Of a DNA stretch of 64,000 nt, positions 18,966 through 39,105 are shown piece by piece. Numbering within the stretch: the stretch's first letter is position 1; each line of letters begins with the position of its first letter. Under the pieces are notes generated by a model. That model did not search any database and had not been told where the DNA came from. It saw only the letters and a list, made by a program, of their open reading frames with translations. The translations under genes were made by a program, and so were the position numbers. This stretch comes from Pseudomonas entomophila (lineage in GTDB: Bacteria; Pseudomonadota; Gammaproteobacteria; Pseudomonadales; Pseudomonadaceae), in assembly GCF_023277925.1 (NCBI RefSeq), contig NZ_CP063832.1:1645001-1709000 (forward strand), read 5' to 3'.

Positions 18966-20450
18966 ATGAAACCCTCGATGGCACTCAAGCCTCTGGTTTT
19001 CGCAATTGCTGCGGTCATGGCTGTTGCTGTACAAGCTGGGCAGAATGATCGGCGTGGCCACCACCACGGTCACTATGACCCACCTCCAACCAAGGTGAGC
19101 GTCACCGCCACGGCCAAGGCGACTGACGTGCAAAGAAGTACCAACAACAAGATCAAGAACGAAGGCACTATCAACAATGCCGAGATGAGCAGCTCCGCCG
19201 CAGGCGCAAGCGGCAACGTCGGTGTCAACGTGGCGGCCGGTAACGGCAACCAACAAGACAACGCCGCCGCCATCGCCAACGCCGGCTCCGATCTCGGTGA
19301 CCGTGACAACGCCTTCGTCTTCGGCAATGCCACTGCAACCGCCAAGGTCGACCAGACCAGCAGCAACAACAAGGTCTACAACTGGTCGACCCAGAACTCC
19401 GCCGTCATGAGTGGTTCGGGTGATGGCAGCAGCGGCAACGTGGGCATCAACATTGCCGGTGGTGATCTCAACCAGCAGAAAAACACCATGGCCATTGCCA
19501 ACAGCAATGCACCACTGGGTAATGCCACCGCCACTGCCTCCGCCAACCAGAATGGCCCTGGCCTGACAGTGGAAAACAACGCCGACCGCACCTACCGTGT
19601 GGACACGCTGACCTTCACCACCACGAAGAGCGGTTCGTCCTCGCGTAGCGGTTCGTTCGACGCCAGTGTCGACAAGAGCTCCAGCTCCAGCTTCAGCGTA
19701 GCGGGCAACAGCAGCAGCAGCGCCAGTGGCTCCCACAACAGCAGCTCTAGCGGTTCGAGCAGCAGCAACGCCAGCGGCTCCAGCAGCAGCAGCGCCAGTG
19801 GCTCCAACAACTGGGACGCCAATGGCTCCAGCAGCTGGAATGCCAGTGGCTCGGCCAGCCGCGACCACAGCTCGTCGTCGAGTGCTTCGCTGAACGCTTC
19901 GCTTGATGCCAGTGCTTCGGGCAGTGCTTCTTCGTCTGAAACCGCCGGCCGCTTCACCCGCTCTCGCAGCGCCGAGTTCGACGCCTCGCTCAACGCCTCG
20001 CTTGACGCGTCGATCGACAAGTCGCACCAATCGTCGAGCAACTCGTCCTATGACAAGTCCCGTGACTCGTCGTTCGACAAGTCGTTCAGCTCTTCGTATG
20101 ACCGCAGCCGTGACTCGTCGTATGACAAGTCTCGCGATTCTTCGTACGAAAAAGCACACGAATCGGCATGGGAAAAAGCCAGCGCTTCGGCCTTCGAGAA
20201 ATCCGGCGAGAAAGCCTCGCAGTCTTCGGACAGCATTTCGAAGAGCTACAACGAAGCTAGCGATTTCTCGCTTAGCAACTCCGTCTCGTTCCAAGTGCTG
20301 ACCCCGACCGGCTGGGCCAACCCTGTGACCAACACTGCAACCCTGAGCGGTTCGGTTAATGGTGGCAGCGGCAACCTGGGCGTCAACGTGGCAGCCGGTG
20401 TGGGCAACCAGCAAAGCAACTCGCTGGCCATCTCCAACACCTCGATGTAA
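18966..20450 (+). CDS. fapC: Major amyloid fibril subunit FapC with very long serine-rich linker
   Basis: A 494-residue secreted protein with signal peptide 1-24, a His-rich start (GHHHGHY), and three Fap repeats: GNVGVNVAAGNGNQQDNAAA (~83-102), GNVGINIAGGDLNQQKNTMA (~157-176) and GNLGVNVAAGVGNQQSNSLA (~469-488). These repeats form the cross-beta core of the fibril. Linker 1 is about 50 residues; linker 2 is about 270 residues, extremely Ser-rich, with an Asn/Gly/Ser part and an octapeptide-like part (SSYDKSRD, SSYEKAHE, SAWEKASA). There is no cysteine and the protein ends ISNTSM, so the C-terminal CxxC reported for other FapC proteins is absent. RBS CGGAG before ATG 18966. A UUCG hairpin follows the stop. 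Confidence 0.92.
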   Translation: MKPSMALKPLVFAIAAVMAVAVQAGQNDRRGHHHGHYDPPPTKVSVTATAKATDVQRSTNNKIKNEGTINNAEMSSSAAGASGNVGVNVAAGNGNQQDNAAAIANAGSDLGDRDNAFVFGNATATAKVDQTSSNNKVYNWSTQNSAVMSGSGDGSSGNVGINIAGGDLNQQKNTMAIANSNAPLGNATATASANQNGPGLTVENNADRTYRVDTLTFTTTKSGSSSRSGSFDASVDKSSSSSFSVAGNSSSSASGSHNSSSSGSSSSNASGSSSSSASGSNNWDANGSSSWNASGSASRDHSSSSSASLNASLDASASGSASSSETAGRFTRSRSAEFDASLNASLDASIDKSHQSSSNSSYDKSRDSSFDKSFSSSYDRSRDSSYDKSRDSSYEKAHESAWEKASASAFEKSGEKASQSSDSISKSYNEASDFSLSNSVSFQVLTPTGWANPVTNTATLSGSVNGGSGNLGVNVAAGVGNQQSNSLAISNTSM

Positions 20451-20464
20451 CAGCCGTGGCCTGG

Positions 20465-20488
20465 AGGCCCCCTTCGGGGGGCCTTCTT
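20465..20488 (+). terminator. UUCG-loop hairpin between fapC and fapD (attenuator)
   Basis: AGGCCCCC (20465-20472), TTCG loop, GGGGGCCT (20477-20484), then TCTTC. The stem is GC-rich with a stable UUCG tetraloop. The weak T tail suggests a partial terminator or mRNA-stabilising structure that would leave fapABC more abundant than fapDEF. Confidence 0.65.
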
Positions 20489-20516
20489 CACGAGCGAACC
20501 AGGGGGGACAGGGAAA

Positions 20517-21197
20517 ATGCGCATTATCGCCTTGGTATTTTTGCTGTGCGTGGCCAGTGTGAGCGAGGCCGCCCAGATGCCGCTGTCCGTACTGCCGGGT
20601 GGCGCAATGATCTACAAACCCGTGCAAAGCATCCGCGAGCGTAAATTCGTCGACCTGGTCCAGCAGAAGACCGACTTCAGCTGCGGCGCCGCGGCGCTGG
20701 CGACCATCCTGCGCCAGGCCTACTGGCTCGATGTCGATGAAGAACACATCATCAAGGGCATGCTCGAGCATTCAGACCAGGACCTGGTGCGAGTCCAGGG
20801 CTTTTCCATGCTCGACATGAAGCGCTACGTGGAAAGTCTCGGCATGCGTGCCCGCGGTTACCGGGTGGCCCCCGAGACCTTGAACAGCATCCGCATTCCC
20901 GTGGTGGTCCTGATGGACATCCGCGGCTACAAGCACTTCGTGGTCATGCAGCGGGTCGACAAAGGCTGGGTCTATATCGGTGACCCGGTGCTCGGCCACA
21001 AACGTTTCACGGTCGACGACTTCGTCAAGGGCTGGAACGGCATCATCTTCGCCGTCATCGGCCAGGGCTACGACAAGAGCAATGCCTTGCTCGACCCACC
21101 ACTGCCGCTGTCCGCCAAGAACCGCATCAATAACTTCACCCCGGTGCAAGACGCTGAGCTGATCGATTTCGGCTTCATCCGCAGCGACTTCTTCTAA
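20517..21197 (+). CDS. fapD: Fap operon C39-family cysteine protease FapD
   Basis: A 226-residue protein with a signal peptide (MRIIALVFLLCVASVSEA) and a papain-like C39 peptidase domain. The catalytic Cys56 is in TDFSCGAAALATIL with the oxyanion Gln a few residues before, His140 is in IRGYKHFVVMQ and Asp156 in YIGDPVLG, so the full triad is present. FapD is required for Fap secretion or processing in the periplasm and works with FapF. Unlike bacteriocin C39 proteins it has no ABC transporter part. Start ATG 20517 after AGGGGGGACAGGG. Its stop TAA overlaps an alternative start of fapE. Confidence 0.9.
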   Translation: MRIIALVFLLCVASVSEAAQMPLSVLPGGAMIYKPVQSIRERKFVDLVQQKTDFSCGAAALATILRQAYWLDVDEEHIIKGMLEHSDQDLVRVQGFSMLDMKRYVESLGMRARGYRVAPETLNSIRIPVVVLMDIRGYKHFVVMQRVDKGWVYIGDPVLGHKRFTVDDFVKGWNGIIFAVIGQGYDKSNALLDPPLPLSAKNRINNFTPVQDAELIDFGFIRSDFF

Positions 21198-21229
21198 TGA
21201 AAAGGAGCACCACGCTCCGGGAGCATCCC

Positions 21230-21976
21230 ATGAACACACGCATTTGGCTGGCACTGGCGTGCCTGGCAGCCAGCCTGTCGACGCAGGCAGAGACCTTCAA
21301 GCCCATCGAGCTCAAGGACCAGGAGCTGGCCAACCTGCGCGGCCGCTACGTCCTGCCTGGGCGGATCGTCAGCTTTGGTATCGTCATGACCAGTACCTGG
21401 CAGAATGCCAACGGTGAAGTGATCGGCGCGACGTCCTCGATGCAGATCCAGCATTCGACCATCACGCCGCAGTTCTATGTGTCGATGATCAATGAAAACG
21501 GCAATGGCTCCTCTTCATCGCAAAGCAGCGGGACTGGCAGCGTAACCGGTGGCAGTGGCCTGAACACCACCCAGGGCGTCACCCAGGTCGTGCGCGCCGC
21601 CGGCGACTTCAACGCGGCGCAGAACAATGTCGATATCAATGTCACCAAGGGCAACGAAGCACCCACGACGCAGCCCCAGGGGCAAGTCCTGGCAGCAGGC
21701 TCGACGGTGATGGGCAGCAACGGCGCAGGCACATTGAGCGTTTCCGCCAGCAATTCAGGGCTGCAGCTCAATATCGACGCCGGCAACAACCAGGGCAGCA
21801 GCCTTCAGCGCCTGGCCCAGGGCGGGCTGATGCAGAACACCACCTTGCTGGGTTCCGGCAACCGGGTGAACAACCTCACCTCGCTGAATATCGTGTTGCG
21901 CGACGGTGCGGCGGCAGCCGGATCGGTCGGTACCAACCTTGACCAGCTCAAAGGCCTACGCACTTCCGGATACTGA
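21230..21976 (+). CDS. fapE: Fap amyloid accessory/minor component FapE
   Basis: A 248-residue secreted protein with signal peptide MNTRIWLALACLAASLSTQA and a mature part opening with FKPIELKDQELANLRGRYVLPG, the conserved FapE N-terminus also seen in GspH-like and other amyloid-associated proteins. The rest is rich in Gly, Ser, Asn and Thr. FapE is a minor fibre component or export factor. The ATG at 21230 was preferred since it directly begins the signal peptide and has GGGAGC upstream; an in-frame ATG at 21197 that overlaps the fapD stop would add 11 residues and is possible. Confidence 0.82.
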   Translation: MNTRIWLALACLAASLSTQAETFKPIELKDQELANLRGRYVLPGRIVSFGIVMTSTWQNANGEVIGATSSMQIQHSTITPQFYVSMINENGNGSSSSQSSGTGSVTGGSGLNTTQGVTQVVRAAGDFNAAQNNVDINVTKGNEAPTTQPQGQVLAAGSTVMGSNGAGTLSVSASNSGLQLNIDAGNNQGSSLQRLAQGGLMQNTTLLGSGNRVNNLTSLNIVLRDGAAAAGSVGTNLDQLKGLRTSGY

Positions 21977-22022
21977 TCTACGCTCAGTCTCATCTTTTGT
22001 AGTCAGAAGGGACGGCTAACTC

Positions 22023-23306
22023 ATGCACCGATTGTCAGCACTCAGAGCTATTGTCTGTTTGAGTACCCTGGCTCCGGCCAGTTTGCTGCACGCGGCAACG
22101 GACCCGCAGGTCGAAGCGCTGAAACAGGAACTCATCCAGTTGAAGCAGCGCTACGAGGCACAACAGAACGCGCTGATGGTGTTGGAGCAACGGCTTCGCC
22201 AGGTGGAGGAAACACCAGCGGCCGCGCCACCCAAGCGCCTGGTGCGGTCCCCTGCGGAGAAGGCCAAGGGCGCGCAGACCGTGGCTTCGGGGGCACCGGG
22301 CGCCTCCGGCAGCTCGTATGGCCAGTCGCTCCAGGACGATTCGCAGCCCGCGCAGAGCGTGTCCAACCTGTATGACGAAGCCAGCGGCTTCTTCGGCGGC
22401 GGCAAGTTCAGCGTCGAAACCGGGCTAACCTACTCGCGCTACGACACCCAGGCGCTGGTGCTCAACGGTTTCCTGGCGCTGGATTCGATCTTCCTCGGCA
22501 ACATCAACATCGACCGCATCAAGGCGGATGTCTGGACGCTGGACCTGACCGCACGCTACAACGTCGACCAGCGCTGGCAATTCGACGTCAACGTTCCAAT
22601 CGTCTATCGCGAGTCCACCTATTCTTCCGGCGGTGTGCAAGGCTCCGGCAAGAACGCCTCCGACGCCAGTGTCACCCGCGACCCCGAGATCGGCGATGTC
22701 AACTTCGGTGTCGCCTACAAGTTCATCGATGAATCGGAAAACTGGCCCGACGCCGTCGCGACGCTGCGCGTGAAGGCCCCGACCGGCAAGGACCCCTACG
22801 GCATCAAGCTGGTCCAGGCCGACCCTTCCAACGACAACCTGTTCGTGCCCGAAAGCCTGCCCACCGGCAACGGCGTCTGGGCGATCACGCCAGGCATCTC
22901 GCTGGTCAAGACCTTCGACCCGGCCGTGCTGTTCGGTAGCCTGTCCTACACCTACAACATGCAGGACTCGTTCAGCGACATCAGCCCCACGGTCAACACC
23001 AAAGTCGGGGGTGATGTAAAACTCGGCGATTCGTGGCAGGTCGGCGGCGGTATCGCATTTGCCCTGAACGAGAAGATGAGCATGTCGTTCTCGGTCACCG
23101 ACCAGTTCGCCCGCAAGAGCAAGATCAAGCAGGACGGCGGCGACTGGCAGTCGATCACCAACAGCGACTACAACGCGGCGAACTTCAACGTCGGCCTGAC
23201 TTTCGCCGCCTCCAACAACCTGACCATCGTGCCCAACCTGTCCATCGGCCTGACCGAAGACGCGCCGGACTTCACCTTCAGCCTGAAATTCCCCTACTAC
23301 TTCTGA
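22023..23306 (+). CDS. fapF: Fap outer-membrane secretion channel FapF
   Basis: A 427-residue outer-membrane protein that forms the trimeric pore through which Fap subunits leave the cell. Residues 1-27 are a signal peptide (…LLHA), residues ~28-65 form a strongly heptad-patterned coiled coil ([20 protein letters not shown]…[10 protein letters not shown]), then a Ser/Pro/Gly linker that acts as plug region, and from about residue 130 a 12-strand-like beta-barrel with alternating hydrophobic residues, ending FSLKFPYYF with a C-terminal aromatic residue as required for Bam assembly. Start ATG 22023 with AGAAGGGA upstream. A hairpin follows the stop. Confidence 0.9.
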
Positions 23307-25754: not shown

Positions 25755-26561
25755 TCAATAGTAGGAACGCTTCTGCGGCTCCGCCTTGTTCAATACCGCA
25801 CCGATCAGGTTGGCCGTGGCCAGGTGATACAGGCAGTCCTCGATCTCCTTCTTGCTGTTCACGCCGTTGGCGACCACCAGCAACACACAGTCGAACTTGG
25901 GCAACACGGTGATCGCATCGTCGGAACTGAGCAGCGGTGGCAAGTCGAAGATGCAGATACGCGACTCGTAACGTTCGCGCAGGTCGCTGATCAGGTTGCT
26001 CACCTTTGGCGAAGACAACATTTCAGTGGACAACGGTATCGGTTCACGGGTTGGCAACACCACGAAACGCGGCAAGGTCGGGTTGACCATCACCTCTTCG
26101 AGCCCCGACTTGCCGGCCAGCAGCTCGTTGAGCGCCTTGTCCATCGGCAGCCCGAGGGCACTGCCGACTCTCGGGCGACGCAGGTCGAAGTCAACCAGCA
26201 ACGCCGTCTTGGTCGTGTGGTGAGCGATGCTCATGGCCAGGTTGATCGACAGCACCGTCTTGCCGGCTTCGGGCGTCGGCGATGTGATTGCCAGGGTGCG
26301 CCACCCCTTCTCTTCCATGGTCTGCAGGATCTGCGTGCGCAGCAGGTCGAACGCCCAGCTCATGTTCGAGTTCTTGTTGTAGGCCACGATTCGATTGCGC
26401 TCCAGATGCTCCGCACGCAGTGGCACGACCTTGGTCTGAACATAATCGAAGGGGCCCAGCAGTTCATGCTGCTCCACCAGTGGCACGGGCTGCGGTGTCT
26501 CCGAGGCACCCGGTGAAACCTGATGAAGGTTCTTTCCAACAACCGGCGTAATCCTGTCCAT
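25755..26561 (-). CDS. EPS-locus CpsD/Wzc-type tyrosine autokinase
   Basis: A 268-residue soluble ParA/MinD-like bacterial tyrosine kinase. Walker A is SPTPEAGKTVLSINLAM, Walker A' is ALLVDFDLRRPRV and Walker B is ICIFDLPPLLSSDD, the BY-kinase set. The C-terminus ends RSYY, a very short tyrosine cluster. Such kinases regulate EPS chain length and export by autophosphorylation against the Wzz-like partner, here the separate protein encoded 11 bases upstream. A stand-alone kinase beside a kinase-less Wzz is the layout of PEP-CTERM-type EPS loci. Start ATG 26561 has GGAAGG upstream. Last gene of the minus-strand EPS unit. Confidence 0.82.
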   Translation of the reverse strand: MDRITPVVGKNLHQVSPGASETPQPVPLVEQHELLGPFDYVQTKVVPLRAEHLERNRIVAYNKNSNMSWAFDLLRTQILQTMEEKGWRTLAITSPTPEAGKTVLSINLAMSIAHHTTKTALLVDFDLRRPRVGSALGLPMDKALNELLAGKSGLEEVMVNPTLPRFVVLPTREPIPLSTEMLSSPKVSNLISDLRERYESRICIFDLPPLLSSDDAITVLPKFDCVLLVVANGVNSKKEIEDCLYHLATANLIGAVLNKAEPQKRSYY

Positions 26562-26572
26562 CGTGACCTTCC

Positions 26573-28141
26573 CTATGCAAACCGAGCCATGACTTTGAAC
26601 AGCAGAACATCCAGCGGCATATAGAACAGGTGGATGACCACCAGCAGAACAGCCGCCAGCAGAATACCCACGCTGACCAGCATCACCCGCCATTTCCTGC
26701 GCCGAGCCAGATCCGCCTGGGTAGAGATGTAGGGCACGGCGACCAGCACACGTTTACCCAGGACGCTTTCCAAGGCCCCCACGCCGCGTATGCGCTGGTT
26801 CAGCAACTCCAGCAGCATGACCAATGCACCGCCACCGGCCGGTGCCAGCACCAGGCCAAGGGCGACGATTTTCTTGCGATTGGGCTTGACCGGTTTCTCG
26901 GGCATCAGCGGGGGTTCGAGCAGTACGAAACGTTCAGCCTTGTTTTCCTGCTCCAGGCTCTCGGTGATCTTGGCGCCCATTTCCTTGGCGCGGATCTCCT
27001 CGTACTTCTTGCGTGCGTTGTCATGATCGCGCATCAAGGTGACCAAGCCACGCTCGACCTGTGGCGCTTCGAGAATCTGCGCCTCGTAGCTCTCCATCTT
27101 CTTGGTCAGCTCGCGCTTCTGCTGGGCCAACGAAGCGATCGTGTCCTGCGCCGCGACAATCTTGGCCCGGGCTCGGGCCACATCAAGACTGACCGATACC
27201 GCCGCCAGGCCCTTGCCGTCGGTGGCGCCCTCAAGCGCCTGGATCTTGCGTTTAATCGCGATCACGTCGGGGTGTGCCGGGGTGTACTTGGTCAGCAACC
27301 TGGTGTATTCGGCCTTGAGGCTGCCCAGGTCCTGCGGCTGCTCGGCGGCAGAGGGGCGAGTGCCGTCGGGGCGAGTGGCCAAGCCGGCGTTCGCCGCCGA
27401 CAGTTCGAGCTCCAGGTAGCGCAGCTCTTCCTGGGCATTCTTGTAGTCGCGGTCCACTTCCCGGAATTCCAGCTCCGAGCGTGACAACATGCTCATGCGC
27501 AGCGACTGGTTCTCGGGTAAGGCGTTGGCGTGGGCCTGTTTGAAGTCCGCCAGCTGGTTTTCCAGCGTGGCCAGCTCGGTACCCAGCTTGTCGGCTTCCT
27601 GGGTCAGGAATTCGGTGGTTTCACTGGCGCGCTCGGTACGTTGCTTCATGTTCTCGTTGAGAAACAGCGTCACCAGTTCGTTGGCCACTTCCTTGGCGAC
27701 TTCCGGGCGCTTGTGCTCGAACGACACGCTGAACGCCACGGTGGTCTCGCCCCGCCCTTTGACGAAAGTGCTGAGGGTGGTCACGACGATGGCGTTGCGC
27801 ATCTGGTCGATCTTGTCGGCTTCGCTGAACTGTCGGCCCTTGTCAGCGAACAGGTTGTACTTGTCGATGATCTGCAACAGGTTCTCGCGGGTCATGACCC
27901 GTTGGCGGATGACCTCGATACGCTCATCGGCGAAGCTGTTGTTGTTGTTGGACACCAGTTCCGGCGAAATCTGTTGCGACTCGACCAGAATGGTGCCGGT
28001 CGACTGATAGACCGGCGGCACCGAAACCGCCACCCCCACTGTCGCCGCCAGGATGACCACCGCCGTCACCCCCAGCAGCAGGGCGCGGTCCTTGATGATA
28101 GCGATGTAGTCTTTCAGGGACAGCTCGTATTCAGATTTCAT
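26573..28141 (-). CDS. EPS-locus chain-length determinant (Wzz/GumC-like, no kinase domain)
   Basis: A ~522-residue inner-membrane protein with a Wzz domain. Two membrane helices flank the periplasmic part: residues ~20-45 (VTAVVILAATVGVAVSV) and ~495-520 (MLVSVGILLAAVLLVVIHLF), with a second hydrophobic piece around KIVALGLVLAPAGGGALVMLLELL (the GNVR/G-rich region). The middle is long coiled coil (~170-380). It controls polymer length and couples polymerase to export. The domain lacks a C-terminal kinase; that role is on the next gene. The start is ATG 28141; an in-frame GTG nine bases upstream is possible, and neither has a strong Shine-Dalgarno. Confidence 0.82.
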   Translation of the reverse strand: MKSEYELSLKDYIAIIKDRALLLGVTAVVILAATVGVAVSVPPVYQSTGTILVESQQISPELVSNNNNSFADERIEVIRQRVMTRENLLQIIDKYNLFADKGRQFSEADKIDQMRNAIVVTTLSTFVKGRGETTVAFSVSFEHKRPEVAKEVANELVTLFLNENMKQRTERASETTEFLTQEADKLGTELATLENQLADFKQAHANALPENQSLRMSMLSRSELEFREVDRDYKNAQEELRYLELELSAANAGLATRPDGTRPSAAEQPQDLGSLKAEYTRLLTKYTPAHPDVIAIKRKIQALEGATDGKGLAAVSVSLDVARARAKIVAAQDTIASLAQQKRELTKKMESYEAQILEAPQVERGLVTLMRDHDNARKKYEEIRAKEMGAKITESLEQENKAERFVLLEPPLMPEKPVKPNRKKIVALGLVLAPAGGGALVMLLELLNQRIRGVGALESVLGKRVLVAVPYISTQADLARRRKWRVMLVSVGILLAAVLLVVIHLFYMPLDVLLFKVMARFA

Positions 28142-28162
28142 GGCGGCCACCCAACTGAGGAT

Positions 28163-29278
28163 TCAGAGGTCGGGAAATCTATAAGTCAGCGTAAGTCCAG
28201 CGATTGTAGCTTCGGCATCGGGCGAGCCATTTTGTTGGCGCTCCTTGTACATCAACGATAGGCGCAGATCCCAAAAAGGCGAGAATTGCCGACTGCCCCA
28301 GATGCTGTAGGTCTGCAGCGTGTTCGGCGTCTGCCCCTTGCTGTCCTGCCAGGCCGCGTCGACACCCACACGGTTGAGCTCGCTGAGCGCATAGCTCCAG
28401 CTACCGCGGATCATATCGAGTTCAGCGAAACCACCCTCGGCGCTGGCGACGGTGCTGCGCTCGGCACTGAGGCTGGCATCGGTGCGCAGGCCCCGGTAAT
28501 TGAGCAATACGCCGCCTTCTCCGCGGCGCTGGCCTGAGCCGGACACCTGGCTGACGCCAAGATGCACGACGCTCTCCAGTTGATCGGAAAACTGGTACTT
28601 CATACCGATGGTCGGCGTGTAGCTGTTGGTGGCGACAGCCCCCGCGCTGGTCTGCTCAGGCTCATACCGCCGCACCCGCACGCTGCTGAAGACATCAGTG
28701 CGCTCGCTCCAGGCGTAGGTGTACTTGAGCGTGTTCGCGTACTCGTCGAAACCGGTCAGTGAGGTGATGTCATAACGCGCGTGGTTGTAGGTGGTTTCGT
28801 TGTCCAGAGTGCCCCGCTCGCTGAGCGCATAGCTCCAGTTCGCGGTCAGCGTGCTCAGTTTCTGCGTGCCGTCGGTGGTGACCACGCCGGTATCCAGCAC
28901 GGTGCCGGAGAGTGTCGAGCTTTCGATGTACTGCCCACTCAAGCCGAAATGCCCGCGCTCGGTTTCCCGCCGCCAGCCCAGGCTGAGGTCGGGGTCCTCG
29001 CGATTGCCCAGCACACTGGTGTCGGAGGAATGCAGCACGTGCGCCCCCAGCCCCAGCCGCCACTCATCGCGGTCGAAAGTGCCGACTAGGCTGTAGCGTG
29101 GCTCGATCATCGTTCGCATCACACCCTTCTCGTCCGAGGTCAGGAGCAATGGGTTGCTGTCGTACTCGACGGTCGTGGGTACCACGACCGAGGATTGCCA
29201 GATGGACGCTTGGGCCAGGCCCGTGTACGGCAACATCAGTAACGCTGTTGCAACACTTGTTGTTCGAATAATAGGCAC
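28163..29278 (-). CDS. EPS-locus outer-membrane beta-barrel protein (EpsL-like)
   Basis: A 371-residue protein with a signal peptide (residues 1-24, LLMLPYTGLAQA) and a repeated alternating pattern of aromatic and polar residues characteristic of an outer-membrane beta-barrel, such as GLSGQYIESSTLSG, TANWSYALSERG, NTLKYTYAWSERT, SLSAERSTVAS and LTLTYRFPDL at the C-terminus. Beta-barrels of this kind sit next to Wza and Wzz genes in PEP-CTERM/XrtA-type EPS loci (EpsL/TIGR03014-like), where they are assumed to aid EPS passage through the outer membrane. The start is GTG 29278 with only a weak RBS, so the exact start is uncertain. Confidence 0.68.
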   Translation of the reverse strand: MPIIRTTSVATALLMLPYTGLAQASIWQSSVVVPTTVEYDSNPLLLTSDEKGVMRTMIEPRYSLVGTFDRDEWRLGLGAHVLHSSDTSVLGNREDPDLSLGWRRETERGHFGLSGQYIESSTLSGTVLDTGVVTTDGTQKLSTLTANWSYALSERGTLDNETTYNHARYDITSLTGFDEYANTLKYTYAWSERTDVFSSVRVRRYEPEQTSAGAVATNSYTPTIGMKYQFSDQLESVVHLGVSQVSGSGQRRGEGGVLLNYRGLRTDASLSAERSTVASAEGGFAELDMIRGSWSYALSELNRVGVDAAWQDSKGQTPNTLQTYSIWGSRQFSPFWDLRLSLMYKERQQNGSPDAEATIAGLTLTYRFPDL

Positions 29279-29306: not shown

Positions 29307-29861
29307 TCACGGGACGACCAAGGTGTCGCCCGCCTGGAGTTGGAAGTTTGTCGAAAGATCGCGGCCGGAAACCAAATCCTTGTAACGTACCGGCAGCACT
29401 TTTTGTGAACTGCCCTGGCCGCGGATCACCTTGATGTCGCTTACGTCCGCAAATTTGTCCAGTCCACCAGACATGCTCAGTGCTTGAAGCACTGCAGTAG
29501 GGCCGGCCATCGACACTGGTCCGGACTTCACTACTTTACCCTGGACATACACAACGTTGCCGGCGGGGTTGATTACCACCACGCTGACATTGGGTTCGGC
29601 AAGATACTCTTTAAGCTTGACGCCGATTCTCTGCGCCGCGCCGGTGGCATCCAGCCCAACCACGTCTACGCGGCCCACCAACGGAAACGTGATGCTGCCA
29701 TCAGGCAGAACAGTGGTTTCCTGGCGCAGAGTATCTTCCTGCCAGACAGAGATCATCACTCTGTCACCAGGGCTCAACAGGTAGGGAGTTGGTTCATTGG
29801 CGCCAGATGCACCGGACCACAGCATCAGCACGCCCAACAGGGGAAGCAGCAAACGCACCAT
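29307..29861 (-). CDS. Polysaccharide export protein (short Wza-like, Poly_export/SLBB)
   Basis: A 184-residue protein with signal peptide (MVRLLLPLLGVLMLWSGASG), a Poly_export domain (YLLSPGDRVMISVWQEDTLRQ, PDGSITFPLVGRVDVVGL) and one SLBB domain (NVVYVQGKVVKSGPV, LQALSMSGGLDKFADVSDIKVIRG). Wza-family proteins form the outer-membrane EPS export channel. No lipobox cysteine is present and the protein is about half of Wza length, as in PEP-CTERM-linked export proteins. The ATG at 29861 has a strong GGAGGG; a 49-residue upstream extension lacks a signal-peptide-like start. It heads the compact four-gene export group 29861-25755. Confidence 0.82.
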   Translation of the reverse strand: MVRLLLPLLGVLMLWSGASGANEPTPYLLSPGDRVMISVWQEDTLRQETTVLPDGSITFPLVGRVDVVGLDATGAAQRIGVKLKEYLAEPNVSVVVINPAGNVVYVQGKVVKSGPVSMAGPTAVLQALSMSGGLDKFADVSDIKVIRGQGSSQKVLPVRYKDLVSGRDLSTNFQLQAGDTLVVP

Positions 29862-30175: not shown

Positions 30176-30352
30176 TCAGATCCGTTTTCTGTTCGCAACC
30201 GCGACAAAACCGATGACGGCAAAGCCAAACAGCCAACCTGCCGTCGCCAACGGAATGACACTTGACTGATTGATATAAGAATCGGCCGCTCGCGCTGCGC
30301 CACTAATAAGCACCAACAGGAAAATCGACTTGATGAACAGTGTCGAGCGCAT
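30176..30352 (-). CDS. Mini-protein with signal peptide and PEP-CTERM/VPLPA-like C-terminal anchor
   Basis: A 58-residue protein found within the EPS unit. Residues 1-22 are a signal peptide (FIKSIFLLVLISGAARA), residues 23-32 a ten-residue mature stretch, and residues 33-58 a C-terminal anchor. The tail pattern, IPLATAGWLFGFAVIGF then AVANRKRI, matches the PEP-CTERM/VPLPA layout of a Pro motif, hydrophobic helix with WLFG, and a basic end, as in many exosortase substrates. AGGAGGGG sits directly upstream of the ATG at 30352, a strong argument that it is real. The second Pro of VPLPA is absent. No exosortase gene lies in this window. It could alternatively be a small bitopic membrane protein. 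Confidence 0.6.
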   Translation of the reverse strand: MRSTLFIKSIFLLVLISGAARAADSYINQSSVIPLATAGWLFGFAVIGFVAVANRKRI

Positions 30353-30784
30353 ATTCCCCTCCTGGAAAGAGGACAACCGTTGTAGGTGAGCGGTAGTTTC
30401 CATCGCCCGTAAAATGAGCTTATGGGCACAATGACATTACGTCAACGATCCGGCACCATGATAAAAATCAATCGGGCATCATTACGCTCGTCAAAATTCC
30501 GCCAACAAATAATGCAACTGTCTTTCCCTACACTCAGCGCATGATTTTTTTGCTAAACACCAAAGCAATCAAGTATTCAAACACTTTTGCGCAACAGTCC
30601 TGTCAACGGTACGTCGTTATCATCCCTGTTTGACGGCGGACAGAGAACAACACTGTGTTTCATCCGCGAACATCAAGCGAGAATGATTGTGCTTTTCGAT
30701 CATTATTTGACACGGTGGCGCCAACCTTGAAACCGTTGCAATAGTCCGGCCTATGCCACTCCATGCACGACCCACGCAAGCATC
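30353..30784. other. 432-bp AT-rich gap within the EPS unit
   Basis: No gene is seen in this stretch between the GT61 gene and the mini-protein gene, both on the minus strand. It is AT-richer than the flanks (for example around 30480-30560) and probably holds the promoter of the mini-protein and export genes. On the minus strand AGGCCGGACTATTGC (about 30742-30756) has GG-N10-GC spacing like a sigma54 element, but it is ~390 bases from the mini-protein start and is only suggestive. Confidence 0.5.
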
Positions 30785-31903
30785 TCAGGATGGCAACAGG
30801 TCCAACGTGCGTTCGACCTCGTCGATATCGATCCTGAAACCTTCGCCCTCCGGCACGCCTACCACGAAGGCATAGTGCTGCTGGTCCCGGTCGGTCAGGT
30901 ACTTGTAGTAGCTGACAAAACGGTTCGGTGGCTGCAACGCCAGCAAGGTGCTGCCTGCCTGCATGACATTGACACCATGAACCAACTGGCTCCCCTCGAC
31001 GCCAATCACCACCCGCGCCCCCGCGCAGGCCGCAATGATGGTCGGGACATCGTTTTTCATCGGGTCGATGACCCGAAAGCCACGGTGCTGGCGCAGGTGC
31101 TCGGCGATCTCGAGCTCATTGCGCAGCAAACGCAGGTCACCATCGCTACCCCGCAGGATGAATACGCCGGGGTGCGGTGCATGTTGCACATGCGACAGCA
31201 GTTTGTCGCCCATCGCCCGGTAGCGCAGGTGCCGATTGCGGTTGTTGCTCAGGTCGTCGAACAACACCAGTTCGCGGATGAACGCACCGCGTAAGCGCAG
31301 GGGCTGCATCCCCAGCCAGTCTTCGTAGGCCGGCCCTTGAGTGAACAGAGGGAATCGCGCGGATGGCGCGGTGGTGATCGGAATGCCCTCCTCGCATGCA
31401 AGGGCGTAGGTCGGGCAGTCTTCCATCAGCCAGGTGCCGAACCAGGTATTGCCGTTCTGCGTGCAATAGGCCGCCGCGCGTTCAAGCTCATGCTCGACGA
31501 TAATCCGCGGGAAGGTGCAAGGTTTCAGCGACAGCCAGTGGCTGGCGTCACCTTTGTACAGGGCGCCGTCGACCAACCAGACATCCTTTATCAGGTAGCC
31601 CCGTGTCGGGCCTTGCTCCGTGGTGATGCCGCCCTCCATGGTGCGCCCAGGATGCACGTAGGGGTAGAAGCGCTTGCCTTCCCAGCCGGTCACCCGCTCC
31701 ATCTGGTTGGGCAGGTAGATCGCCGGAGGCGAGAGCGTGGTTTCGCCCGGGGCGATATCCCAGCTTTTCGCCGCCACACGCTTGATGTCCAGGTCCGCCT
31801 TGCGCGCAAGGCGCTTCCTCGCCATGTACTTGTAGGCAGCGAGGGTCCAGGTATGCCGACTGGCTACGGCCACTTCGCTGAGCTTCGAAATATCGCTTTC
31901 CAT
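30785..31903 (-). CDS. Glycosyltransferase family 61 (DUF563) protein
   Basis: A 372-residue cytoplasmic protein with the GT61/DUF563 architecture. Family features are the middle region DDLSNNRNRHLRYRAMGDKLLSHVQ, the nucleotide-sugar-like stretch HPGVFILRGSDGDLRLLRNELEIAEHLRQHRGFRVIDPMKND, and the C-terminal AGARVVIGVEGSQLVHGVNVMQAGSTLLALQPPNRF, where the G-x-E-G-S-x-L-x-H-G motif is typical. GT61 enzymes transfer sugars such as xylose or GlcNAc; the donor here is unknown. GGAGGA precedes the ATG at 31903. It lies 45 bases downstream of the FemAB/GNAT-like gene and is presumably co-transcribed with it. Confidence 0.78.
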   Translation of the reverse strand: MESDISKLSEVAVASRHTWTLAAYKYMARKRLARKADLDIKRVAAKSWDIAPGETTLSPPAIYLPNQMERVTGWEGKRFYPYVHPGRTMEGGITTEQGPTRGYLIKDVWLVDGALYKGDASHWLSLKPCTFPRIIVEHELERAAAYCTQNGNTWFGTWLMEDCPTYALACEEGIPITTAPSARFPLFTQGPAYEDWLGMQPLRLRGAFIRELVLFDDLSNNRNRHLRYRAMGDKLLSHVQHAPHPGVFILRGSDGDLRLLRNELEIAEHLRQHRGFRVIDPMKNDVPTIIAACAGARVVIGVEGSQLVHGVNVMQAGSTLLALQPPNRFVSYYKYLTDRDQQHYAFVVGVPEGEGFRIDIDEVERTLDLLPS

Positions 31904-31948: not shown

Positions 31949-33103
31949 TCAATTGGAAAAGATGCGCTCCATCGAGGGGGGCGTCTGCAAACTGGCGTAG
32001 CGCGTGCGCAGGGTCTCGAGGAACTGCTCGCCAGCGCGACCGGCGCCGTAGAGATAAATCTTGTGCAGGCCGCCAAAGACCATTTCGTGATAACGGTCGG
32101 CGACTTCCTCATCACTGGCGTCATCCGGCAAGCCCAGGTGCAGCGTCAACTTGCTACCTTCCACGGCGAACAGTGGCGTATCCCAGAGGAACTGCGCCAC
32201 ACCCGCCTTGGGCAGGCGCACGAACATGTAGGCATGATTGCCCAGTGAATCGATATCGCCACCACGCCTTCTCTTCCACTTCAACAATCCGTCATCCGGG
32301 CGGGCCAGGCACAGGCCAATGTCGTAGTAGTCGAAACCGTGCTCCAATGCCCATTCCAGTGCCATGAACGTGGTGATGGAGTTGACCTCGCGCAGGCGCT
32401 TGGGGTCCGAAAACACCGCTTCGCAATAGCCGAAGCGCAAGGTGCTCCAGTACCGTTTGCCGCCCCGGGTGATCTCGCAGCCCAGGTGGCAGGCCACCAC
32501 CTCTCCATCGAAGGTGATCAGGTCGAGCCGCCCCACCCCCTTGGCCAGGCGAAACACATCGTCGGTGGGAAACTGCGCCGCATGGATACCCTGGCGCGCT
32601 GTGGCATAAGGCCGTAGCAGTTCCCTGTCGGCCATGGCGATCTCTTCATCGTCAAGGGTCTGGCGCATCTGGTACAGGGGCCGGTGCTTGCGAATGCTGC
32701 GACGCAGTTCACTGTCGTAGCGGGCGGTTATCTCATCGAGGGAACGCCCCAGGGGCACCACGGCACTCAAATAATGAGGCACATTCAACGCCCCTGACGT
32801 GGGCATTTCGCTGACCACGACCACATGACCGGATGCGCTCGAGCGTTTTTCGCCTTCCACGACCGGCACATCCCCATGGGATTTGCCGCCGATCAGCAAC
32901 TTGGCCATGGCCCTTTGCTGTTTTCTACCGATGTAGAGGATCTCGTACGGGCTCTCCTGCTGTAACTTGAACCTGGCGACTTCCCAACGCCAGAAGCAGG
33001 CGCGACTGAGCAGATCACGCAGTTTGTTAGAAGTATTTCTTATTTCGTAGCGCAGGGAAGGTGATAGGAGTGTCCGGGCAATGGCCGCCAAGTGCGCTTT
33101 CAT
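31949..33103 (-). CDS. FemAB/GNAT-like acyltransferase, PEP-CTERM EPS-locus type
   Basis: A 384-residue cytoplasmic protein with a GNAT-fold domain of the Acetyltransf_6/FemAB-related type. The region ELRRSIRKHRPLYQMRQTLDD is the conserved helix after the first half, GVGRLDLITFDGEVVACHLGCEI is the acceptor-strand region, and NSITTFMALEWALEHGFDYYDIGLC matches the FemAB motif. FemAB-related genes are a regular member of PEP-CTERM-type EPS loci; the product may acylate the sugar unit or a peptide. The ATG at 33103 follows GGAGAAG; an upstream extension with a Cys-rich start is unlikely. First gene of the minus-strand EPS unit. Confidence 0.68.
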   Translation of the reverse strand: MKAHLAAIARTLLSPSLRYEIRNTSNKLRDLLSRACFWRWEVARFKLQQESPYEILYIGRKQQRAMAKLLIGGKSHGDVPVVEGEKRSSASGHVVVVSEMPTSGALNVPHYLSAVVPLGRSLDEITARYDSELRRSIRKHRPLYQMRQTLDDEEIAMADRELLRPYATARQGIHAAQFPTDDVFRLAKGVGRLDLITFDGEVVACHLGCEITRGGKRYWSTLRFGYCEAVFSDPKRLREVNSITTFMALEWALEHGFDYYDIGLCLARPDDGLLKWKRRRGGDIDSLGNHAYMFVRLPKAGVAQFLWDTPLFAVEGSKLTLHLGLPDDASDEEVADRYHEMVFGGLHKIYLYGAGRAGEQFLETLRTRYASLQTPPSMERIFSN

Positions 33104-33450
33104 GTCTTCTCCGATGTCCATGCATGCTGCCGGTGGGGGCAGATCAGAAAAATTGGCTTGCCCTTTAATATCGCGCGTAATTACTTGACAAACATGACAA
33201 ACACTTCGCAAGCAACTCATATTCAGTAACAAGTAAAGATGCGCGACCCAACCTTGGCAAGCGGCCAATTGACATCAATGCTGCATTTTAAATGACGTCA
33301 ATTTTTCTATCAGACCGTTCGCGCTTGTAAAACCACCGTTTATAGCTATTGCTTCGGTATAACTAACGTCTTCCTTATCCCTTCGATATTGAAAGCGCCC
33401 AGCGCCATGTGCCGCGGCGCCCTGTCAGGGCGTTGCTCAACCTCTGCCCC
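33104..33450. other. Intergenic region between FemAB-like gene and GGDEF-EAL gene
   Basis: No gene is seen in these 347 bases. The part 33150-33390 is AT-rich and upstream of the EPS unit, so it probably carries its promoter. A small perfect inverted repeat, CGCCCTG-T-CAGGGCG (33418-33432), lies just past the GGDEF-EAL stop and could end that transcript, but it has no T run. Confidence 0.5.
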
Positions 33451-35832: not shown

Positions 35833-38800
35833 ATGGACTCGAACACCCCCAACCCACACCAGGCCCTCCTCGAACGCCAGTTGCCCGCCTGGGCCCGTGA
35901 CGCCGCCCCTGAACACTGGCAACGGTTGGGCGAGGGTATCGTGCCGGCACAGGGCCTGCCCGGCGCCGAGGCCGACTGGTTCGCCAATGCCGCGCCCCAC
36001 CTGCGCGAGGCCGCGCAAGCCAGCCAGGCACGCTTGATGGCCTCGCAACGTTCGTTGGCCGCGCAACTACGCGGGCTGAAGAACATCACCGAGTTCGCCG
36101 AGCCCCTGCTTGCCGAACGCCTGCGCAACACATACGAATTCAACGCCCCGCTCCGTACAGCCGGGCTGGTGTGGCTACGGCACTTGTTTACCTTCCAGGT
36201 GTATGTCACCCACCACGAACACCGCACGCTGCTCGAAGCGGCCCTGCAGAACTTCGGCGACCCCATCACCTTCAGCAAGGACAGCGCCCTTGCCCTGGAC
36301 GGTGACTGGACAGTGCGCGAGACCACGGTGACCGGCAGGACGACCCTGGGCGACAGCGAAACGATGGTGGACATCACCCTGCCTTCCGAGCAGGTGACCA
36401 TCAAGCCGCTGGCGCTCTCGCCCGCCGACTTCGCCAGGGCTTGCCGCGAGCTGGACCTTGGCCAACGCTACCAGACGCACCTCGATACCCTGTTCGCCCC
36501 CTCTGCCGTTCGCCAGGCCGCGGTCCGTGTCCATCAGGACAGCCTGCGCCTGGCGAGCGACCTGGCCAGGGTGCGCCATCAACTGAGCGGCGCAGGCCGG
36601 GATGCCGTGCAATCGATGCTGGCTGACGGCTGCGCGTATACCTGCAAACAGATGTGCCTGTTCGGCGTTACCCTGCACGAAGCCGTCATTATCGACACAG
36701 GCGCGACCGGCCTGCTGCTCTATCTGCCAGGGCACCAAGAGGCACTCCGCGCGTTCGACAACCTCGATGCCCTGCACCAGCGGTTATGCCAGGATCTGTT
36801 GGCCGCAGCGTTCCGCCAGCGCTTCATGGACTACGTGCCGAGATCGCAAATTGCCCTGTTTTCCAGCCGGCTCCAGCAGAACCTCGACGCCAGGGGGAAC
36901 ACGCCCGCAGATCAGCGCTGGGCACTACGTGATGGCGCCGACCTGCACCTGGCAACGTCACCGATCACAGGTGATCTGTACGATTTCCTGCACGATGACC
37001 ACCTGGCGCGTCTCAAGCGCGAGGCCAGGCAAGTGGCCGTGCCAACCGCCGATGCCGACGAGCTGGTGTACAAGGCCCGCAAGGCCCTGTGGGACAGCGT
37101 TGGGCTCAATGCGCTCATGATCGGCGCCCTGTTCGTGCCGGCATTGGGCACGCTCATGACCGCCGTCATTGCCTACCAACTGCTGGATGAAGCCTACGAA
37201 GGCTATGAAGCCTGGCAGGTCGGCGACCGCAAGCAAGCCATGCAGCATCTCAAATCAATCGCGATCAACCTCGCCGTGATAGGCGGCTCGCACCTTGCCG
37301 GAAAAGCCGTGAAAGCGCTTGGCTCGAGCGAGTTGATGGAAAGTCTCGAGCCCGTGACCTTCGACGACGGTAGCCAGCGCCTGTGGCGGCCGGTACCAGG
37401 GCGCCTGCTGCAGGACTACCCGCGCTTGACAGCGCCAATGGTCAGGCGCATGCAGGTCGAGGGGCAACTTCCATCGCAAGCCCTTTCCTCCGTGCAAGAC
37501 GACTCGGCCCAGCAGTTCCTGAACAGTGCGCTGGAAGGTCTTTACCTGCCAGAGCAAGCCAGCGCCGATAGCGAACGGCTGATCATCAATGCCCTGCCCC
37601 AGCTCCCCGGATGGCCAGCGCAATTGCGCCTGGAGCTGCGTGCGGGCTCTCCGCGAGGCGCGTTGCTGATGGCCTCGGGCGCCGAGCAGGGCAGCCGCAC
37701 ATGCATCGTGATCAAGTCCGCCGAGGGCTACGAAGCCTACCTCGGGGAACGGCCAACACCGCTGCCTCGGGATCACGACCTCGGTAGGGCTGTCCTCCAG
37801 GCACTGTCCCAGGGCGATCGCCAAGCTCTGGGGCTGGCACACGATGATATCGGCAGTCTGCGCAGTGCGATCCACCGCCTGGTGGCGTCTGATAACACCC
37901 GCGCCATGCGCCTGCTCGAACCCTCTGCGATGGGCTGGGGATCGGGCGGCGGGCTGTCGGGCGGCATGGAAGCGCCGGCCCCGGATATGGATATCGGCGC
38001 GGCGTTTCGACGCTACCGACAACTCTATCCCGAGGTCGCTGACGTCCAGGTCAACCAACAACTGACACAATGGAGGGAAGCTGGCCTGGACCCTGCGCAA
38101 CAAATAGCCGACCTGGAACGCCAGCTCATGGACTTTCGCGAGGCGCTGCGGACCTGGGCCGGCAACCATCCGTTGCGCCATGCCACCGCCCGCAGGCTGG
38201 TGAGCAACTGGCAATGCATTTCGGAATACGCCGAAGAGGAAGGGGAGGCAGTACACCAGCTCAACCTGACCGACCTCGCGTTGACCGATGAGGACCTGGC
38301 CGCCCTGGCGTTACCGGACCGCTTCCAACATATCCAGCGGGTTGAACTGAGCGGCAATCGCGACCTGACCGAGCTGCCCGCGGAGTTCCTCGAACGATTC
38401 CCCCGCTTGGAGCGCTTGCACCTGATGAACTGCGGGCTGACGCAGATCCCCAACATCGCGGTGCCGGAGTCCCTGCAATGGCTCGACATGCAAGGCAATC
38501 GAATCGTCTGGAGCGACGCCAACCAAGCGGCACTCGACCGTCTGAGCGACTTGCGCATGCTGGACCTGTCGCACAACCCTCTGGCCCGAAGCCCCGACCT
38601 CGGCCAATTGGACGACCTCGACCTGCTCAACCTCAACCACTGTGAGCTAACAGAATGGCCTACGGGTATGCGCACTGATGACGACTGGCGCCCGACGGTG
38701 TTCGACCTGCGCGACAACCGCTTCGCGAGCCTGCCGCAAGACTTGCAACTGTCGCGGGTTGCCGCCCAGAACCTGTGGCTGGAGAGCGAAGAGCTGAGCG

Positions 38801-39105
38801 AGCAAGTCAACCAGCAGATCCAGGCCTACTACGATCAGCACGGCATCGACCTGCTGGTCGCCGATATCGACTATGAGGACATACTCGAAAACACCGACGT
38901 CACGGACAGGACAATCTGGAACGACCTGCCGCTGGCCTATCGCCGTGAGCTCCGCGGGCTGCAGGATTTGCCCGACTACAGCCAGCCGCAGTTGTGGCAG
39001 CGGCTGCGCACCTTCACCGATCCTCGGGTGAAGGACTACGCCTTGTCGATTGGCGCAATGAGGTTGCTGGACGGCGAGGTATTCCCCCCACCTTTCGAGG
39101 AATGA
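35833..39105 (+). CDS. LRR protein of the dermonecrotic-toxin-like/NEL effector family, lacking the NEL domain
   Basis: A 1090-residue protein. Residues ~1-420 resemble the N-terminal part of Pseudomonas 'dermonecrotic toxin'-like LRR-NEL proteins (DUF6543: PAWARDAAPEHW, ADWFANAAPHLREA, MDYVPRSQIALFS). Residues ~423-460 and ~477-498 are hydrophobic segments that may insert in membranes. Residues ~808-945 hold about five leucine-rich repeats (VELSGNRDLTELPAEFLERF, RLHLMNCGLTQIPNI, MLDLSHNPLARSPDL). In relatives a Cys-dependent NEL ubiquitin-ligase domain follows; here only a ~145-residue tail without cysteine is present. Start ATG 35833 after AAGGA. There is no signal peptide. Host target and secretion route are unknown. 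Confidence 0.7.
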   Translation: MDSNTPNPHQALLERQLPAWARDAAPEHWQRLGEGIVPAQGLPGAEADWFANAAPHLREAAQASQARLMASQRSLAAQLRGLKNITEFAEPLLAERLRNTYEFNAPLRTAGLVWLRHLFTFQVYVTHHEHRTLLEAALQNFGDPITFSKDSALALDGDWTVRETTVTGRTTLGDSETMVDITLPSEQVTIKPLALSPADFARACRELDLGQRYQTHLDTLFAPSAVRQAAVRVHQDSLRLASDLARVRHQLSGAGRDAVQSMLADGCAYTCKQMCLFGVTLHEAVIIDTGATGLLLYLPGHQEALRAFDNLDALHQRLCQDLLAAAFRQRFMDYVPRSQIALFSSRLQQNLDARGNTPADQRWALRDGADLHLATSPITGDLYDFLHDDHLARLKREARQVAVPTADADELVYKARKALWDSVGLNALMIGALFVPALGTLMTAVIAYQLLDEAYEGYEAWQVGDRKQAMQHLKSIAINLAVIGGSHLAGKAVKALGSSELMESLEPVTFDDGSQRLWRPVPGRLLQDYPRLTAPMVRRMQVEGQLPSQALSSVQDDSAQQFLNSALEGLYLPEQASADSERLIINALPQLPGWPAQLRLELRAGSPRGALLMASGAEQGSRTCIVIKSAEGYEAYLGERPTPLPRDHDLGRAVLQALSQGDRQALGLAHDDIGSLRSAIHRLVASDNTRAMRLLEPSAMGWGSGGGLSGGMEAPAPDMDIGAAFRRYRQLYPEVADVQVNQQLTQWREAGLDPAQQIADLERQLMDFREALRTWAGNHPLRHATARRLVSNWQCISEYAEEEGEAVHQLNLTDLALTDEDLAALALPDRFQHIQRVELSGNRDLTELPAEFLERFPRLERLHLMNCGLTQIPNIAVPESLQWLDMQGNRIVWSDANQAALDRLSDLRMLDLSHNPLARSPDLGQLDDLDLLNLNHCELTEWPTGMRTDDDWRPTVFDLRDNRFASLPQDLQLSRVAAQNLWLESEELSEQVNQQIQAYYDQHGIDLLVADIDYEDILENTDVTDRTIWNDLPLAYRRELRGLQDLPDYSQPQLWQRLRTFTDPRVKDYALSIGAMRLLDGEVFPPPFEE

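Follow-up and report, generated by a model that had tools for sequence, protein, structure and literature searches.

Exosortase tails are usually treated as cleavable address labels, and sigma-54 promoters are known for PEP-CTERM genes. PEP-CTERM proteins have been described as fast evolving in general, and where the enzyme is present it is normal for the tail to be conserved while the passenger evolves fast (PMC1569441). PepA, a flocculation-associated PEP-CTERM protein, is described as working in the binding of EPS to cells (PMC9850573). A much smaller protein, EppA ('EPS-associated small membrane protein'), is already named as an NCBIfam family but is uncharacterised. Among the matches listed by our literature search, with subscription papers outside its scope, none dealt with EppA, with XrtD of Pseudomonas or with PEP-CTERM tails lacking an exosortase, and the papers in which 'EppA' or 'xrtd' was mentioned concerned, by their titles, other subjects or fields.

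Here we analyse eppA in a window of Pseudomonas entomophila DNA, the window being the whole stretch of 64,000 nucleotides. A sequence-only reading had described the gene product as a signal peptide joined to little more than an exosortase-type tail, and had proposed a marker, a small anchor or a regulator of EPS export. What the present analysis adds, and what the papers searched did not contain, is where EppA came from (an XrtD substrate), the scars left by the exosortase gene, the exact tie of eppA to one operon and the selection on the orphaned tail.

Results

The eppA gene and its product

The gene and its parts are as follows.

30176..30352, minus strand: eppA, 58 codons plus stop (NF046088 130.5 bits; 50 homologues; dN/dS 0.088)
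30287..30352, minus strand: signal peptide, residues 1-22, with an A-x-A end and predicted cleavage (sequence and conservation in 52 sequences; helix in the model)
30254..30286, minus strand: linker, residues 23-33 (ADSYINQSSVI), resembling what precedes the tail of the long forms (alignment)
30179..30253, minus strand: exosortase-type tail, residues 34-58, with Pro, Trp, a hydrophobic helix and ANRKRI (alignment to VPLPA tails; helix 35-53)
30358..30363, minus strand: ribosome site AGGAGG, 5 nt before the ATG (sequence)

Translation of the interval gives an open reading frame that runs on the minus strand from 30352 to 30176, stop included, and encodes MRSTLFIKSIFLLVLISGAARAADSYINQSSVIPLATAGWLFGFAVIGFVAVANRKRI; the plus-strand reading of the same interval is broken by an internal stop. 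Directly 5' of eppA lies AGGAGGGG, and the AGGAGG within it (30358-30363, 5 nt ahead of the ATG) makes a good ribosome site, where a strong one had been claimed. The protein matches the NCBIfam model NF046088 (EppA) over its full length (model positions 1-58, 130.5 bits, E 2e-38, cut-off 90), this model, itself built from such proteins, being our test of membership. A Pfam search of the protein gave no match. At E<=0.01 the protein database holds 50 homologues, 48 of them exactly 58 residues long, and those that are named come from Pseudomonas except for one strain labelled Pantoea. The named species genomes that we scanned contributed 51 eppA loci, mostly from the P. putida group, with one from P. 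citronellolis and two labelled Pantoea. The latter two (L094 and L104, Pantoea Ap-967 and Cy-639) bear an EppA and an operon of the P. putida-group kind and are probably mislabelled Pseudomonas.

Together with the window these 51 loci make up a set of 52 sequences, all of 58 codons. Across this set the A-x-A of signal-peptidase type before residue 23 is almost invariant (A20 in 52/52, A22 in 51/52), as are Pro34 (51/52) and Trp40 (52/52). By its sequence the signal peptide has a basic start, a hydrophobic core and the A-x-A, and after it come about 11 linker residues and then a hydrophobic stretch with a basic end; the anatomy given in the sequence-only reading was thus right. An AF2 model places helices at residues 2-28 and 35-53 with a mean pLDDT of 80.9.

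Short eppA genes are under strong purifying selection, since 17 disjoint pairs contain 207.5 silent and 66.5 amino-acid changes, against about 616 of the latter expected without selection. The resulting dN/dS of 0.088 is spread evenly over signal peptide (0.09), linker (0.10) and tail (0.08). The NF046088 match, the constant length of the homologues and this ratio confirm that eppA is a real coding gene and not a chance open reading frame.

Measured against what defines a PEP-CTERM or VPLPA protein, EppA has the N-terminal signal peptide, as judged from sequence, and the C-terminal membrane helix with basic residues, the helix (35-53) being modelled. What it lacks is the Pro-motif (PEP or VPLP) before the helix, because the second Pro of VPLPA, at residue 36, is missing from 52/52 sequences. 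The proposed succession of Pro-motif, helix and basic tail therefore holds for the first Pro, Trp40, the helix and the basic end, and fails for the second Pro. Neither PF07589 nor TIGR03370 (VPLPA-CTERM) matches the protein, so the model search that the earlier reading had recommended came out negative. Scanning the protein's own genome with the EppA model returned, besides eppA, only a stretch at chance level (E 2.07), and scanning it with PF07589 returned nothing.

The EPS export operon and its linkage to eppA

On the same strand and 3' of eppA stand genes for a Wza-type export protein, a barrel-type protein, a Wzz and a tyrosine autokinase, in keeping with the earlier placement of the gene upstream of export genes.

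29307..29861, minus strand: wza-type polysaccharide export protein (PF02563; TIGR03027 117.7 bits, below the cut-off of 180)
28163..29278, minus strand: outer-membrane barrel-type protein, start uncertain (Porin_4 23.8 bits, below 27; TIGR03016 weak, 22.7 bits, below 90.85)
26573..28150, minus strand: wzz chain-length determinant (PF02706; TIGR03007 245 bits, below the cut-off of 278.85)
25755..26606, minus strand: tyrosine autokinase, start uncertain (TIGR03018 145.7 bits, below the cut-off of 230.65)
30785..31903, minus strand: glycosyltransferase family 61 (GT61; PF04577), 5' of eppA in 32/51 named loci
31949..33268, minus strand: GNAT-type protein, start uncertain (PF13480 16.7 bits, below 22), 5' of eppA in 32/51 named loci

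Order and strand of eppA, wza, barrel and wzz are constant in all 51 named loci, with the kinase next in 50 of them and the Wza match always 203-428 nt from eppA; this is conservation beside EPS loci of the kind that the earlier reading had proposed to look for in other pseudomonads. PrsT, the ATPase and the UndP-glycosyltransferase were not found within the window. Elsewhere in the window two plus-strand regions were examined with Pfam. At 18966-23306 a serine-rich protein in which GVNVAAG-NQQ stretches recur is followed by a peptidase of C39 type (PF03412) and by two further proteins, one secreted and one barrel-like, a row that we take to be reminiscent of a Fap-type functional amyloid set; at 35833-39105 is a 1090-residue protein with an N-terminal ToxA_N domain (PF20178) and leucine-rich repeats.

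The linkage extends to whole genomes. Among 298 Pseudomonas genomes the Wzz of the operon is present in 50 (E<=1e-60), and a comparison of the lists by script showed that these are exactly the genomes with EppA (32) or with a long form of it (18). The exosortase family PF09721 occurs in none of the 50. One further genome with a relative of EppA, G240, falls outside the Wzz set because its contig ends before wzz.

Long forms and the XrtD locus

The EppA model matches 52 of the 298 genomes, 32 of them above the cut-off. The remaining 20 comprise G061, G240, in which the match lies beside exosortases, and the 18 long forms. The G061 match (E 0.006) was considered as a long form and left out of the count, as it is an unrelated 193-residue open reading frame. 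The long forms, all from genomes without an exosortase, are 114-205 residues long and have a similar signal peptide and a VPLPA-type tail such as AVPLPAAAWLFSSALFGFIVVANRRKV. That same set of wza, barrel, wzz and kinase directly follows the gene in 16/18; the other two, G228 and G079, have the operon's Wzz at a distance of 14-17 kb on the contig that carries the long form. In the alignment, long and short forms resemble each other over about ten residues N-terminal of the tail, and the second VPLPA Pro is present in 9/19 when G240 is added to the long set. The AF2 model of a 218-residue relative was useless (mean pLDDT 39.9).

In two genomes the same kind of protein stands beside its enzyme. 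G447, a complete genome of the same genus, has in order XrtD, PrsT, an ATPase, an undecaprenyl-phosphate glycosyltransferase, a long PEP-CTERM gene, a second PEP-CTERM gene, wza, barrel, wzz and kinase, and G240, a 77% complete assembly, has the same order as far as wza, where the contig ends. Both enzymes pass the XrtD cut-off of 400 bits (563.4 in G447 and 556.7 in G240). With the VPLPA-CTERM model (TIGR03370) the G240 tail scores 25.0 bits, just short of the 25.35 required, and the G447 tail (VPLS) goes unreported. Since G447 reads VPLS and yet has XrtD, we dropped the loss of the second Pro as a strict sign of exosortase loss. The second PEP-CTERM protein of G447 (L082), encoded between the long PEP-CTERM gene and wza, ends in the tail AVPLPGAALLFGSALLGAGMMRRRK; in the exosortase-less loci examined nothing corresponds to it ahead of wza. 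G240 (L042, 5387-7871) has a second exosortase, of XrtB type (375.1 bits against a cut-off of 275); together with EpsI and a gene resembling peptidyl-prolyl isomerases it stands back to back with the XrtD locus.

Absence and loss of the exosortase

The search for an exosortase in the EppA genome, which the sequence-only reading had called for, was negative: PF09721, TIGR04178 and the XrtD protein of G240 all found no match in it (G000), so a cognate enzyme is lacking there. The kinship with exosortase substrates that this reading had claimed stands by descent, through the long forms and the XrtD loci, and is not supported as a statement about a present-day substrate. More widely, PF09721 occurs in only 6/298 Pseudomonas genomes. 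In a second sample 6/248 genomes of the family, in 2/19 genera, gave a match, and the four genomes that were new comprise G447 with an exosortase, G411 with a match below the cut-off (16.6 bits), and G455 and G458 with none. TIGR04178 was found only in G447 and G240 among 55 genomes. Five Pseudomonas genomes (G013, G054, G166, G180 and G148; loci L033, L034, L035, L037 and L036) have a different exosortase, in a frame of about 470-570 residues. In four of these five a PEP-CTERM tail ends a frame of about 680-700 residues that lies 50-100 nt from the exosortase, which looks like a dedicated enzyme-substrate pair.

Remnants of xrtD are still visible in two of the 50 exosortase-less genomes. In G079 the last 29-30 codons remain (76-77% identity, no start region) just 5' of the UndP-glycosyltransferase gene; L050 and L072 carry this same scar, which we counted once. 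In G204 about 20 codons remain (65-70%), with an internal stop, just 5' of prsT, which is the position of xrtD in G447 and G240. These were the sole forward matches at E<=1 in 74 loci (1.09 Mb), and the reversed-sequence control gave nothing below E 0.08. No such scar was found in the window and its genome or in the other 47 of these genomes, whether of long or of short form. The scars show that xrtD was lost, and not gained, in at least the G079 and G204 lineages.

The relatives form a size series of 218, 205, about 165, 141, 114 and 58 residues, from which, together with the shared position, we infer that a long form was shortened by deletion to 58 residues. A Wza tree of 51 rows (L043 and L050 have no Wza in the fetched stretch) places the long forms on one side of a branch with support of 96/93, and the XrtD pair among the short forms with weak support (82/65). 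Because of this placement the best tree requires two changes to account for the short forms, which may nevertheless have a single origin, and the tree neither contradicts nor proves descent by deletion and leaves its direction unfixed. Homology and synteny with the gene beside XrtD were found, as was a trace of the enzyme, and we regard it as very probable that EppA descends from an XrtD substrate and that the enzyme was lost.

Selection on the orphaned tail

Four disjoint pairs of long forms, of equal lengths and from four close clusters, contain 22 silent and no amino-acid changes in the 25-codon tail, against 81 silent and 115 amino-acid changes in the ectodomain (dN/dS 0.40; tail versus ectodomain, p 1.8e-8). 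Their signal peptides contain 8.8 silent and 17.2 amino-acid changes (dN/dS 0.65). Over the six choices of pairs that we tried, the tail shows 0-1 amino-acid and 22-25 silent changes, and the ectodomain 98-115 and 79-85, with p from 2e-6 to 5e-9. One tail amino-acid change appears in 3/8 long-form pairs, all involving L051, and enters three of the six choices.

The contrast of tail and passenger is in itself ordinary; its persistence without an exosortase is not. The sorting tag has outlived its enzyme and its passenger and is still under selection, and a leftover so strictly preserved probably has a job of its own.

The upstream region

Three further elements precede the gene.

30417..30445, minus strand: putative promoter TTGACG-N17-TAAGCT (pattern recurs in 50/52 upstream regions; absent from the promoter-scan list)
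30441..30454, minus strand: conserved box 2 (GCCGGATCGTTGAC), FleQ-like, overlapping the putative -35 (box pair conservation)
30490..30503, minus strand: conserved box 1 (GGCGGAATTTTGAC), FleQ-like (box pair conservation)

A pair of GTC-N6-TTGAC boxes exactly 49 nt apart, with at most one mismatch per box, precedes the short form in 52/52 upstream regions; the boxes of the window have one mismatch each. The pair is 51-52 nt apart in 17/18 long forms and absent upstream of the two XrtD loci (G447 and G240). The FleQ consensus has been given as GTCaNTAAAtTGAC, with a strong FleQ ChIP-seq peak upstream of PP_3126, by authors who warn that the motif is unreliable genome-wide (PMC6120874). Going by its description, PP_3126 would be the wza of the eppA operon. 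The FleQ-like boxes before eppA suggest that these EPS genes may be under c-di-GMP control.

A promoter and terminator scan reported other sites, among them a promoter-like site at 30075-30048 between eppA and wza, for which reason co-transcription of the two genes is an assumption only. A sigma-54 promoter upstream of eppA was considered and rejected, as the best scores average 16.05 against 15.38 for shuffles (46 upstream regions). Rfam gave nothing over the eppA region up to E 0.1.

Discussion

Our data point to a history in which the ancestor of EppA was a VPLPA-type PEP-CTERM protein, the substrate of an XrtD encoded in the same EPS locus. The enzyme gene would then have been deleted, and the extracellular passenger would have been eroded and, in the P. 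putida group, removed altogether, which would leave a signal peptide, a short linker and a sorting tail. As no exosortase is there to cut it, the tail would stay in place as a membrane helix, and signal peptidase, cutting presumably after ARA, would release residues 23-58 as an inner-membrane peptide of about 36 residues with a periplasmic N-terminus and a cytoplasmic ANRKR. Its membrane helix would hold such a peptide to the Wza-Wzz-kinase export machine, where it could serve as a small docking or accessory subunit. We think it probable that EppA is an uncleaved accessory peptide of EPS export of this size in the inner membrane, with its topology, signal-peptide cleavage, partner and phenotype all predicted. 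That it occurs strictly with one EPS export operon, and that its helix is constrained, suggests binding to a part of the export machine. Of the roles offered by the sequence-only reading, the small anchor or accessory fits best, and nothing was found for a regulator.

A more far-reaching idea, which we put forward tentatively and hold to be possible but doubtful, is that the PEP-CTERM tail has a second role that is independent of the enzyme, its helix and ANRRK end being recognised by the Wza-barrel-Wzz-kinase machine, and that EppA is the isolated docking module. If this were true, the tail would dock XrtD substrates to the exporter before cleavage, and after the loss of XrtD docking alone would have kept the tail alive while all else was dispensable.

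Several other explanations can be set against an uncleaved accessory peptide. An unrelated membrane protease might have taken over the cutting of the tail, so that EppA, or the peptide without its tail, would be a product; the tail is as constrained as before, and the absence of PF09721 and TIGR04178 leaves room for an enzyme of another kind. We nevertheless judge this unlikely, as the second Pro, the most enzyme-like feature, is gone from every sequence of the set, the neighbours that we examined included no recognisable candidate protease gene, and cleavage would release only about 11 residues. The position of eppA, behind a strongly conserved promoter region and at a short distance (203-428 nt in 51/51) before the Wza match, would also suit a leader open reading frame that tunes the downstream EPS genes by ribosome arrest or coupling and is not a working protein. 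This is improbable given that amino-acid selection extends over the whole length (dN/dS 0.08-0.10 in all three parts), that the gene is homologous to proteins of 114-218 residues and that Rfam has no match.

That EppA is simply the dead relic of a lost exosortase system would agree with the descent by loss to which scars and size series point, but 66.5 amino-acid changes where 616 are expected (17 pairs) already contradict it, and eppA and the operon occur together in 32/32 short-form genomes, which makes a relic very improbable indeed. Hardly credible, finally, is an ordinary small membrane protein with a chance likeness to exosortase tails: although EppA on its own matches no PEP-CTERM model, relatives that bridge the gap share position, signal peptide, linker and tail with the proteins beside XrtD, and this already contradicts a chance likeness.

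EppA is thus a label that has lost its reading enzyme and its cargo and yet persists, with hardly any change, in front of the EPS genes to which it belongs. What a PEP-CTERM tail binds becomes a testable question in a laboratory pseudomonad without an exosortase. There is a warning here as well, against deducing a working exosortase from the presence of a PEP-CTERM-like tail in a genome.

Among the known systems, PepA (NF033554) is matched only weakly by the long forms, at best with 24.0 bits over ectodomain and tail against a cut-off of 80; unlike EppA, PepA carries a passenger, and its gene has a sigma-54 promoter, whereas upstream of eppA no sigma-54 site rises above shuffles. The EPS export families of the XrtA/PEP-CTERM type (TIGR03027, TIGR03007 and TIGR03018) are the best NCBIfam matches of the window's Wza, Wzz and kinase, but these proteins all score below the cut-offs and no exosortase stands alongside. 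With the VPLPA-CTERM/XrtD system (TIGR03370, TIGR04152) EppA shares the tail, each residue of which has its homologue in the tails that G240 and G447 encode beside XrtD; EppA differs in having neither the second Pro nor a passenger domain, and its genome is without the enzyme. The EppA family itself (NF046088) has the same length, the same EPS neighbourhood and a full-length match to the window protein, and for this named family the present analysis supplies an origin.
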